From NCBI GenBank assembly GCA_017460915.1, contig JAFUAA010000022.1, positions 1-36,288 on the forward strand: a DNA stretch of 36,288 nt, given 5' to 3'. The DNA comes from Bacteroidales bacterium. Lineage in GTDB: Bacteria; Bacteroidota; Bacteroidia; Bacteroidales; F082. Positions within the stretch are counted from its first letter, which is position 1, and the number at the start of each line of letters is the position of its first letter. A program made the position numbers and the translations under genes. Below are positions 6,549-14,410 of this stretch, in pieces. A model generated the notes under the pieces. That model was not told the origin of the DNA, did no database searches, and saw only the letters and a program-made list of their open reading frames with translations.

Positions 6549-6620
6549 TAGCGGGGGAAGGATTCGAACCTCCGACCTCCGGGTTATGAGCCCGACGAGC
6601 TGCCTCTGCTCTACCCCGCA
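6549..6620 (-). tRNA. Initiator tRNA-Met (anticodon CAT)
   Basis: The minus strand folds as a complete cloverleaf. The acceptor pairs GCGGGG with CCCCGC. The D stem is GAGC/GCTC. The anticodon stem-loop is TCGGG-CTCATAA-CCCGG, and the T arm is GGAGG-TTCGAAT-CCTTC. Two features mark the initiator: positions 1 and 72 do not pair (T/T), and the anticodon stem has three consecutive G-C pairs next to the loop. The 3' CCA is not encoded (A is followed by CAA). The gene stands alone between the lipoprotein terminator and era, which runs divergently. Confidence 0.93.
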
Positions 6621-12293: not shown

Positions 12294-13411
12294 TTAGTAT
12301 TTATCTTGATAAGGCGTGGATTCCACACCATTCTCTTGTAATGCATTCACCATTCTATCCAAAAGGATCCGCCACATTTTTTTGAACCATTCCGTATCTC
12401 CAAACCATTTCACAAGTGTTGGGCCGATGGCATAATATGTCTTGATGAAAGCTCTGCCATACCATGTTTCGTCCAAAGTGTTGTCGCGGAAACGGCGAAG
12501 TGTCCATACTTCGGGGCAATTGTAAGAACCGTAAACAGCTGTGGCAACATAGCAACCAGAACCCTTCATTTCATACTTCTCAGGATGGAGTTTTATATCT
12601 TCCTCAATTTCCAGTCGACGCTTTTCCAAAGCAGGGAAATCTTTGGTTATTGATAATTCTATTGCATCACATTTACTTCGAATAGCCTCTTCATTGGGTG
12701 ACCAATACTTGCCCACATGAAAAAGCAAACAATATTTATAATCAAAATAAGCGTCGCGCAATTCTTTCCCTTTGTTTTGTATCTGGCAACTATCTAAAAA
12801 ATCGGCAATTCTTTTGTGGCTTGTTCCAAACTATAAGCCAAATTCCCCATGTTTAAAAACATTTCAACTTGCGGATTATCCGCCTCTGTACAAGCCTCAA
12901 TAGCATATTGTTTACCATAAGCCTGAAAATATGAGTGATAAAGTTCGCGTATGGAATCCGATGCCTCCTTTGCAATCTTTGATGCTGCTTTTAACAGATT
13001 TATTCCCGTTTCCATGAAAAATAGACCTACTTCTTCTTGTTTCGTCGGTTCAAACAAAACAACATTCTTTCCAGAAGAAATAACTTCCGCTGTTCTTGGG
13101 TTCCCATTTGTTGATAATCCTGCTGTGGTTTTCATTTTTATCATCCAGGCTTGCGCATTCTCTGGATCTTGCTCAAGAATCTTATTTGCATAATCATAGG
13201 CTTCTTGATAATTTCCCGCATAGAGAGCTTTTTTTGCAAGATTCATCCAGGTTCCTATTTTTGAGCTATAATCAATTGACACCGTCCCTTCTATCATCAT
13301 CTTCCTTGCTTCTTCAACTGTGTATTTTGTCCCACAGTTTTGACAGACATATAGTCCGTCTTGTTTCACAACATCGTTGCTTCCGCACATTTCACATTTC
13401 AATGCTTTCAT
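12294..13411 (-). pseudogene. Zinc-ribbon/TPR-like protein with CFI-box C-terminus, frameshifted
   Basis: The N-terminal half (13411 to 12794) starts with a four-cysteine zinc ribbon: C6xxC9 and C23xxC26 in MKALKCEMCGSND and YVCQNCGTKY. A helical, TPR-like region follows (KALYAGNYQEAYDYANKILE). The C-terminal half (to 12294) holds the CFI-box-like motif CYVATAVYGSYNCPE with RRFRDNTL and WYGRAFIKTYY. The frame breaks near 12805-12812; reading one base over gives ADFLDSCQIQNKGKELRDAYF and joins the halves. The span (1118 bases) is one base short of a whole number of codons, so a single deletion explains it. The intact protein would have about 372 residues. It follows a structured RNA. A sequencing error is a live alternative to true decay. 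Confidence 0.7.
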
Positions 13412-13451
13412 ATTTCTTATTCTTTTGAGGATTATTTATTTCTCACACAAC

Positions 13452-13611
13452 AAAAAAAGCGTGGAATCAATTCCTTGCTTAAACACCAGGGTTTCCACGC
13501 CCATACCTCATAACAAGTATTCCACGCCGTAACGAGTACGGCATTTGTTTACTTGCCCTTGAGGTATTGCCCCGCCAATACGGGGACGAGTGGAAAATTT
13601 GGTGTTCAAGG
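13452..13611 (-). ncRNA. Candidate structured RNA with switchable terminator
   Basis: On the minus strand (5' at 13611) seven helices nest without conflict. H1 is 13607-13611 with 13473-13477. H2 is 13600-13606 with 13482-13488. H3 is 13590-13596 with 13492-13498. H4 is the hairpin 13570-13574/13581-13585. H5 is 13560-13567 with 13503-13510. H6 is 13550-13555 with 13514-13519. H7 is the hairpin 13526-13531/13537-13542. This gives a closing rod, a three-way junction and a long terminal rod, 44 base pairs in all. A second fold pairs GCGTGGAA (13493-13500) with TTCCACGC (13459-13466), followed by seven U (13458-13452). It competes with H3, as in riboswitch or attenuator antitermination. The element lies after the HEPN gene and 40 bases before the zinc-ribbon gene. 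It could instead be a free-standing RNA, possibly 6S-like. I do not recognise the family. Confidence 0.7.
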
Positions 13612-13680
13612 ACAGCAACAAGTGCTATCTGCTAATATGTAAGTTATTGTTTATCTTGTTGTTTTCTTTTGTTTAATTAT

Positions 13681-14070
13681 TCAATATATCAGTTTCTCTA
13701 TCTTATCTATAAACACGTGTGTCGGCTCTTTGAGCGACATGGCTTCTTCCTTCGTAATATCGTATGCGCAATTGTAATCGGCCTTCTGGCGAAGTTGGAA
13801 TAAACGGGCCAGGAAACTGCCATCCTCCAATGATACCATTTCAGTTTTCACAAAATGCAAACTAAACTGTGTCAACATCCCCGAATGGGTATGCGCAACG
13901 ATTTCTCTCTGTATGAAAAGGGCCTGAACAATATGGAAACAAGCATAGTAAAAGCGGTTGACGGCCATATCGGAATAGTCCATGTCCATCATCTCATCTG
14001 CCTGTTTCACAAACCGATGTGCCCTTTCGACCTGCATGTCGACAAATATCTTTCTCTCTTCTGGTGTCAT
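13681..14070 (-). CDS. HEPN-domain protein (toxin of HEPN/MNT pair)
   Basis: A 129-residue all-helical protein with the HEPN RNase motif Rx6H: R39 and H46 in NRFYYACFH. A second conserved block LRQKADYNCAYDITKEEA is typical of the PF05168-type HEPN family. In HEPN/MNT systems the HEPN protein cleaves RNA and the partner nucleotidyltransferase neutralises it, in characterised cases by adenylylating a tyrosine. Its start overlaps the 3' end of the MNT gene by 4 bases (ATGA), which indicates translational coupling. The length is normal and the catalytic pair is intact, so it is probably active. The structured RNA lies immediately downstream. Confidence 0.87.
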   Translation of the reverse strand: MTPEERKIFVDMQVERAHRFVKQADEMMDMDYSDMAVNRFYYACFHIVQALFIQREIVAHTHSGMLTQFSLHFVKTEMVSLEDGSFLARLFQLRQKADYNCAYDITKEEAMSLKEPTHVFIDKIEKLIY

Positions 14071-14393
14071 TGCAACAGATTTACTGCATCATGATGAACA
14101 TTTTCATAGAAAGGCGTAGCATGATAGGATTGCCATTCCTTTTCGGTGTACATTATCGGATTGATTTCCTCTCCCAACTCACAACCTAACAAAACAAAAG
14201 GATAACTCACCGTATCGTAATCCGACTGGGTGAGTTTCTCCTTATTAAGTATAAGGATGATATCCCAATCCGAGTATGCATGTGCCGTCCCTCGCGCTCG
14301 TGATCCGTAAAGCCAAGCCTCGCTTCCAGGCGGGAGGACCTCCAATGCCAACTGTTTAATGTCCGACAAAACGTTTTCCATGATTGATTTCAT
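14067..14393 (-). CDS. MNT-domain nucleotidyltransferase (antitoxin of HEPN/MNT pair)
   Basis: A minimal nucleotidyltransferase of about 108 residues. It carries the pol-beta-fold signature GSRARGTAHAYSDWDIILIL, where GS and the SDxD acidic pair bind metal and ATP. It precedes and overlaps the HEPN gene. I place the start at the ATG at 14393 (MKSIMENVL). The frame is open further upstream, but a -7 element (TAGTTTTG, minus strand, 14403-14410) lies there. The ATG at 14381 is an alternative and would leave a normal short leader. A third conserved acidic residue (EINPIMYTEKEW region) is also present, so catalysis looks intact. Confidence 0.85.
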   Translation of the reverse strand: MKSIMENVLSDIKQLALEVLPPGSEAWLYGSRARGTAHAYSDWDIILILNKEKLTQSDYDTVSYPFVLLGCELGEEINPIMYTEKEWQSYHATPFYENVHHDAVNLLQ

Positions 14394-14402
14394 TTTACTC
14401 GG

Positions 14403-14410
14403 CAAAACTA
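14403..14410 (-). promoter_or_regulatory. -7 element for the MNT/HEPN genes
   Basis: Minus-strand TAGTTTTG fits TAnnTTTG. It places the transcription start close to 14396, so the message is almost leaderless if the ATG at 14393 is used. Confidence 0.45.

Follow-up and report, generated by a model that had tools for sequence, protein, structure and literature searches.

A conserved two-state leader RNA of Bacteroidia as a candidate transcription attenuator

What is the structured stretch that separates a HEPN/MNT gene pair from a zinc-ribbon gene in a Bacteroidales genome, and what might it do there? The window analysed here is a whole stretch of 36,288 nucleotides (assembly GCA_017460915.1, contig JAFUAA010000022.1; lineage F082). 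A sequence-only reading of it had described an unrecognised RNA of about 160 nt at this position, with a junction that would hide one arm of a terminator. Domain matches confirm the location. Upstream, in the same orientation, lie a HEPN-domain gene (13681..14070, minus strand; PF05168, 6e-14) and, overlapping it, a gene for an MNT-type nucleotidyltransferase (14067..14390, minus strand; PF01909, 4e-7). Downstream lies the putative controlled gene, which encodes a zinc ribbon and TPR protein (12794..13411, minus strand; PF11781, 3e-7) and has its start codon 40 nt after the U-run of the element. The folds, homologues and gene contexts presented here suggest that the element is probably a cis-acting transcription attenuator belonging to a new RNA family.

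RNA folding of the minus strand from 13629 to 13452 gives a long nested structure with seven helices, P0 to P6. The structure reported earlier is present, with a 5′ hairpin (P0, 13629-13611) that had been missed, so that the whole leader element, from this hairpin to the end of the U-run, occupies 13452..13629; the covariance model R1 matches the window copy over 13447-13630 with 156.6 bits. On the minus strand, 13445-13620 has a folding energy of −68.1 kcal/mol, compared with −47.6 ± 4.5 for 200 dinucleotide shuffles, none of which was as low (z −4.5), and the full element (13630-13453) reaches −74.2 kcal/mol (z −7.0, 0 of 300 shuffles as low). A structured RNA is thereby borne out. The opposite, plus strand also folds stably (z −5.6, 0 of 200 shuffles), as expected of a long inverted repeat, and the strand assignment is accordingly based on tests other than folding of the window, namely a comparison of G-U pairs and strand energies, and gene orientation. 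R1 also has a weak plus-strand match at 13459-13641 (15.3 bits), likewise expected for a long inverted repeat. As had been reported, the minus strand carries the eight-letter 3′ arm UUCCACGC and, directly behind it, seven U (13452..13458). At least five U occur among the seven nucleotides 3′ of the terminator stem in 94 of 96 copies, this set being the 100 rows of alignment A3 less four that lack a recognisable 3′ arm. A3 is itself a model-fitted alignment, from which L080 (truncated) and five rows that were antisense or weak had been removed. One chance pattern match (L201), two partial copies (L039, L053) and two doubles (L044, L075) were left out before counting.

The element can adopt two complete folds. 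In the first, state A, the 5′ and 3′ halves of the RNA pair with each other, all on the minus strand, through P1 (13478..13610; 13610-13600 with 13488-13478), P2 (13492..13596; 13596-13590 with 13498-13492), P4 (13503..13567; 13567-13560 with 13510-13503), P5 (13512..13557; 13557-13550 with 13519-13512) and P6 (13524..13544; 13544-13537 with 13531-13524). The local hairpins P0 (13611..13629; 13629-13623 with 13617-13611) and P3 (13570..13585; 13585-13580 with 13575-13570) are compatible with both states and were counted with state A in scoring. All seven helices were drawn from the fold, all except P2 also from A2, a structure-blind alignment of 20 sequences that is the basis of R1, and P1, P2, P4 and P6 from partner swaps as well. 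Across A2, 98.6% of the cells of state A with P0 and P3 are paired (99.2% for P0), and 18 of 52 pairs have changed on both sides, including six of ten in P1, while P2 is invariant. The compensatory changes whose absence from homologues was to have counted against the earlier fold are thus present. The same set of helices scores 0.284 for covariation; shuffled alignments give 0.129, and sliding the partners gives no more than 0.048. P3 was not seen by eye in A4, the distant alignment.

The second set of pairings, state B, was recognised from conserved complementarities listed in A4, and in it each half is folded alone. The 5′ hairpin (13541..13625, minus strand; 19 pairs in the window) consists of PY, in which the P0 loop pairs with the strand preceding P6 (13625-13623 and 13621-13617 with 13549-13541), and PX, in which the strand 3′ of P0, UCCUUGA in the window, pairs with the strand 3′ of P4 (13616-13606 with 13562-13551). 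The 3′ hairpin (13458..13528, minus strand) stacks P8, formed in the window by GGCGUGGAAU with AUUCCACGC plus one more U (13528-13519 with 13467-13458), PZ, formed by CUUGUU with AGCAAG (13517-13512 with 13479-13474), and a GGG..CCC tip, P7 (13503-13500 with 13490-13487). The U-run comes next, and hairpin and U-run together look like an intrinsic terminator. P8 formed in 84 of 97 folds of the 3′ half alone. Since both states are built from the same strands, they are mutually exclusive.

In A2, 97.7% of the state B cells are paired, 6 of the 48 pairs have changed on both sides, and the score is 0.121; shuffled alignments give 0.104 (1 of 500 as high). The terminator helices contribute no such change, their arms hardly varying, and in the window the terminator half folds only slightly better than its composition would predict (z −1.6; 22 of 300 shuffles were as low); both observations count against an attenuator. 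As the covariation of state B on A2 is slight and its terminator nearly invariant there, both states were examined by comparing the duplex energy of each copy with its own partner segment and with partners taken from other copies. In 100 copies (75 near and 25 distant), P1, P2, P4, P6 and PX favoured their own partners (p 0.001), and four control pairings showed no such preference; the near-clade z for P4 was spoiled in this test by unpaired defaults, which were capped when swaps were made among similar sequences. In those stricter swaps the own partner was better for P1 in 86, P4 in 87, P6 in 73, P2 in 75 and PX in 68 of 87 copies.

Whole arms of the two state B hairpins were compared in the same way. 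Own partners were better for the 5′ hairpin in 67 of 85 similar swaps (p 6e-9) and 88 of 96 copies in all swaps. The terminator arms did better with their own partner in 44 of 85 similar swaps (p 0.042) and in 82 of 96 copies when all swaps were allowed (p 6e-13); both control pairings were null. Among 20 loci found with the second model, R2 (14 from other orders and six from the window's genome), the corresponding counts were 17 for the 5′ hairpin (p 4e-5) and 19 for the terminator (p 2e-6), with controls at only 7 and 10 of 20; the pairs of R2 include no state B helix. Some effect of shared ancestry is left by shuffles and swaps in all these covariation statistics. On sequence comparison, mutually exclusive folds of terminator and antiterminator type are conserved by covariation, with a weak terminator signal within the near clade. 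A4 also conspicuously suggests a helix that would close the element by joining its 5′ end to the U-run. This helix is not claimed: similar sequences pair no better with their own partners than with swapped ones (43 of 85, p 0.62), and the preference over all copies is small (51 of 96, p 0.027).

The swap tests support the earlier claim of a terminator-like hairpin competing with the long-range fold and also bear on its arm. The complement of the 3′ arm, GCGUGGAA, is present twice, beside P6 and within P2, so the arm first assigned, the P2 copy, was one of two options, and it was probably the wrong one. Pairing of the P6-side copy with the 3′ arm shows an own-partner preference (p 0.002 near, 0.001 distant), and the P2-side copy shows none (p 0.09 near, 0.21 distant). 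The uninterrupted pairing of the P6-side copy is longer in 80 of 96 copies, equal in seven and shorter in nine, and in the window it gives a terminator hairpin of −23.7 kcal/mol, compared with −16.4 for the P2 copy. Weighing against this choice, among similar sequences the P6-side arm was better with its own partner in 57 of 87 copies (p 0.088, with a mean energy slightly worse than swapped), a lack of significance attributable to an arm nearly invariant in the near clade; the P2-side arm was better in 28 of 87. Also against the P6-side choice, RNAalifold joined the P2 copy to the 3′ arm by nine pairs in alignment A1. The 68 sequences of A1 were picked almost wholly by an exact pattern that fixes the P2 copy and the 3′ arm, so that this pairing and the invariance of the core arise there largely by construction. 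MAFFT misaligned the variable stems of A1, for which RNAalifold gave 18 pairs only, and on the halves of A4 it gave almost nothing (−2.8 and −7.1 kcal/mol), the stems being out of register.

Computed energies favour state A. The mean over 96 copies is −67.0 kcal/mol for the full-length fold and −51.8 for the summed halves, a difference of 15.3 ± 5.2 kcal/mol. State B is the minimum-energy fold in none of the 96, which counts against an attenuator, and in the 20 R2 loci the minimum-energy fold has at least 29 cross-half pairs in 17 and fewer than 15 in three. With state A the stabler and state B able to form first, the outcome would be governed by kinetics and by whether the 5′ hairpin holds or opens, and a default OFF state rests on folding order.

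We infer the following course of termination and state switching, and with it which state would be the default. The nascent 5′ half would fold first into its own PY-PX hairpin. If that hairpin persists, the 3′ half would form the P8-PZ-P7 terminator with its U-run, and transcription would halt ahead of the following gene. Timely opening of the 5′ half would instead let it pair with the 3′ half through P1, P2, P4, P5 and P6, dismantling the terminator and allowing readthrough. In the window, the switch would set the share of the MNT-HEPN transcript that reaches the zinc-ribbon gene. Possible triggers acting on the 5′ hairpin are a ligand, a protein and the transcription rate itself. The outline of the antiterminator logic proposed earlier holds, with a two-state switch in place of a junction that hides one arm, since the 5′ half has a competing hairpin of its own.

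The genes that follow the RNA are diverse. In a set of 198 distinct copies, which may include a few loci fetched twice by different routes, 81 precede a short protein with a HIG motif, 109 another same-strand ORF and four no ORF, and four run off the contig. The HIG proteins are of the Cro/C1-type HTH class, with PF13443 matched in 17 of 26 scanned (alignment A5, drawn from 64 HTH proteins). Among 64 of the 87 non-HTH downstream proteins (A6), eight carry a type IX secretion tail and six a zinc ribbon, as in the window, and the remainder are diverse. For the R2 loci, ten of 20 downstream genes, from other orders, were scanned, and seven of these ten encode TonB-dependent receptors; six of the seven have a CarboxypepD-reg match, one below the cut-off, as expected of SusC-like proteins. 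At some of these seven loci an HTH-like ORF can be seen by eye upstream on the opposite strand.

Orientation was assessed with a longest-ORF test, a simpler bare-ORF test having proved uninformative (ORFs of at least 60 aa in 138 of 150 downstream regions, 107 of 150 divergent upstream regions and 370 of 450 random places, with similar results at 100 and 150 aa). At 100 non-HTH loci the adjacent downstream gene lies on the same strand in 88, on the opposite strand in three, is ambiguous in three and absent in six, and at the 20 R2 loci the counts are 16, one, one and two. The result for 79 HTH loci is mixed (42 same, seven opposite, five ambiguous, 25 none) because HTH genes mostly fall below the length cut-off of the test. 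A U-run behind the stem and a same-strand gene downstream together form the arrangement of an attenuator.

Upstream, TAnnTTTG, the consensus promoter motif of Bacteroidetes, occurs within 120 nt in 105 of 196 copies. Shuffled sequence gives 8.9, the adjoining 120 nt give 7 of 193 and the reverse strand 35 of 196; 17 of the 20 R2 loci have the motif as well. A leader-peptide, ribosome-mediated attenuator is unlikely, as ATG ORFs of at least eight codons are rarer than expected over the 5′ region (65 of 196 upstream regions, 116.7 expected from shuffles, GTG and TTG starts lying outside this count). The start-stop AUGUAA or AUGUAG was seen in 55 of 196 upstream regions and in 27 shuffled ones, mostly 21-31 nt after the promoter motif, and in a subset of copies (e.g. 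L086, L091 and L097) it sits 20-40 nt before the 5′ hairpin.

The window copy lacks its own promoter motif, which counts against an attenuator. The sole minus-strand TAnnTTTG between 14470 and 13631 is a promoter-like site at 14403..14410, just before the MNT gene, and this suggests that the RNA sits mid-operon, within an MNT-HEPN/zinc-ribbon transcription unit. Copies directly behind a HEPN gene have the motif in one of 15 cases, compared with 27 of 49 others. Near 16 of 65 copies a HEPN/MNT cluster was noticed upstream, with varying genes downstream, as if such copies were an internal joint of reshuffled operons.

The same features might instead describe a family of free-standing small RNAs with their own promoter and terminator, acting in trans, with readthrough incidental; we regard this as unlikely, though it is the best of the alternatives. 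The frequent promoter motif, the U-run in 94 of 96 copies and the several paralogues per genome would fit it. So would the seven other-order loci (L283, L284, L286, L287, L288, L290 and L291) at which the TonB receptor gene starts 221-574 nt after the RNA, a spacing that suits a separate small RNA equally and so counts against an attenuator. A precedent exists in FopS, a set of paralogous Bacteroides sRNAs described as acting in trans with a single-stranded 5′ stretch and one terminator hairpin (PMC11697453). FopS resembles the present family in being a multicopy Bacteroidales RNA with a promoter, a terminator and a link to SusC-type genes (PMC11697453); the element differs in that it is paired throughout in both predicted states, its 5′ half included, and that it sits before genes in cis. 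Further against trans action are the shared strand of RNA and next gene at 88 of the 91 clear non-HTH loci, the start codon 6-44 nt from the stem in 61 of 64 HTH loci, and the apparently mid-operon window copy. A trans RNA, moreover, has no need of state A, which undoes its own terminator.

Typically, 6S RNA is present in one or two copies per genome. As the main alternative of the sequence-only reading, a 6S-like free-standing RNA fails: no Rfam 6S match was obtained at the gathering threshold in the window or 20 R2 loci, nor at E up to 10 in 13380-13700, and the element occupies 9 + 8 places in this genome at a fixed position before genes.

The switch might also be real and act on translation, with the 3′ arm and U-run set against the start codon, so that one state frees the start and the other hides it. 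At HTH loci, where the start was taken as the nearest ATG before the HIG motif, it lies 6-8 nt after the terminator stem in 24 of 64, as this reading would have it, but 23-44 nt away in 37 and further in three; the start is further off in 40 of the 64, and likewise in most other loci listed. A U-run kept in 94 of 96 copies would also be unneeded for translation control, and we give this reading a poorer chance than a trans-acting RNA.

How widely the element occurs bears on the last alternative. A DNA search matched nine places in the window's genome, one over 57 bases only, and was positive for 27 of the 60 genomes, that genome counted among them. An exact-core scan of named genome contigs found at least 115 stretches; among the matches listed, the 80 with titles come from Bacteroidetes, Bacteroidales, Bacteroidia or Lentimicrobiaceae assemblies, and many of these 80 bear herbivore-gut isolate names. 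R1 finds nine places in the window's genome, the copies on C34 and C48 sharing the same gene layout. Of 295 Bacteroidales genomes, covering 183 genera, 38 (28 genera) are positive with R1, as are two of 395 genomes of a phylum sample. With R2, built from A4, the separate alignment of 24 distant matches, the number of positive Bacteroidales genomes rises to 114 of the 295 and that of genera to 80 of the 183. In a phylum sample R2 is positive in 31 of 296 genomes (15 of 140 genera), mostly from other orders of class Bacteroidia; some of the latter are single-contig genomes, and two weak matches fall outside the class. R2 adds eight places in the window's genome to the nine of R1, and its copy numbers are lower bounds, at most nine candidates having been scored per genome. 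All tallies with both models include the window's own genome, and their E-values are rough.

Such dispersal with varying neighbours, together with folding on both strands and the position of some copies near contig ends in fragmented assemblies, could point to an inverted repeat acting as DNA (a cruciform, a recombination site or a mobile-element remnant) whose RNA fold is incidental, but this is very improbable given 255 G-U to 43 A-C paired cells in the model-fitted alignment A3, better folding of the RNA strand than of its complement in 90 of 96 copies, the U-run at one end in 94 of 96, the promoter motif on the RNA strand in 105 of 196 copies compared with 35 on the other, and the bias in gene orientation. 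A phage or plasmid origin is likewise not indicated: blastn at E 1e-3 matched the window copy to none of 50,697 phage and 72,556 plasmid records, and the exact core had no match in viral contigs.

Comparison with known families supports the earlier statement that the RNA matches none. At gathering thresholds, Rfam 15 yields only a tRNA (6549-6620) in the window and nothing at the 20 loci found with R2. With E relaxed to 10, the window and two distant copies, L246 and L238, gave only sub-threshold matches, the best for L238 being a miRNA model at 33 bits against a threshold of 120. In the open-licence PubMed Central literature we found no description of the family, which is thus apparently undescribed, although a transcription attenuator is a known kind of device. 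Attenuators and riboswitches are 5′ leaders that choose between antiterminator and terminator folds. The element shares with them its leader position, two exclusive folds and a terminator-like hairpin with a U-run shortly before a gene. In contrast to known examples, it has no Rfam match, pairs nearly its whole 5′ half with nearly its whole 3′ half, and occurs in several copies per genome before diverse genes.

Comparative genomics of the phylum has yielded RNA motifs including Flavo-1 (RF01705) and Bacteroidales-1 (RF01693) (PMC2864571); these share the Bacteroidetes origin, but none reached its Rfam threshold in the window or 20 R2 loci. The accessible portion of the B. thetaiotaomicron transcript map (PMC7366714) deals with content other than this RNA family, and that of a Flavobacterium transcriptome lists 64 structured 5′ regions, some without Rfam matches (PMC9723704). 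Two palindromic Bacteroidetes candidates with predicted terminators have also been described, HMP2_4205 near TPR genes and HMP2_1032 near TonB (PMC8040213). Palindromic form, predicted terminator and TPR or TonB neighbours are all shared with the present element, and on this comparison of descriptions the two could be fragments of the family (PMC8040213).

A broader reading is that the family forms a Bacteroidia-wide, multi-copy, riboswitch-like device, with the 5′ hairpin as sensor of a single common signal (a metabolite, second messenger or protein) and strand exchange between covarying folds setting the expression of regulators, secreted proteins and SusC-type nutrient receptors. We offer this tentatively, as an extension rather more likely to fail than to hold. 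A conserved leader in dozens of Bacteroidia genera, placed before surface receptors and regulators, would amount to a layer of global control missed by annotation. As both folds covary, the element may also serve as a naturally occurring model for studying which of two complete structures an RNA adopts as it is being transcribed. Its trigger may reveal what Bacteroidia sense when setting nutrient-uptake and surface genes.

Two further arrangements were observed among the copies. At L067, L072 and L076, two or three copies lie about 1-3 kb apart, each followed by an HTH gene as judged by motif. In the f80 family (L241, L246, L247 and L252), a conserved stretch just 3′ of the U-run reads TTGAAGTC ... 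GGGACTTGGGCA or close variants, and can pair with itself and with the terminator arm.
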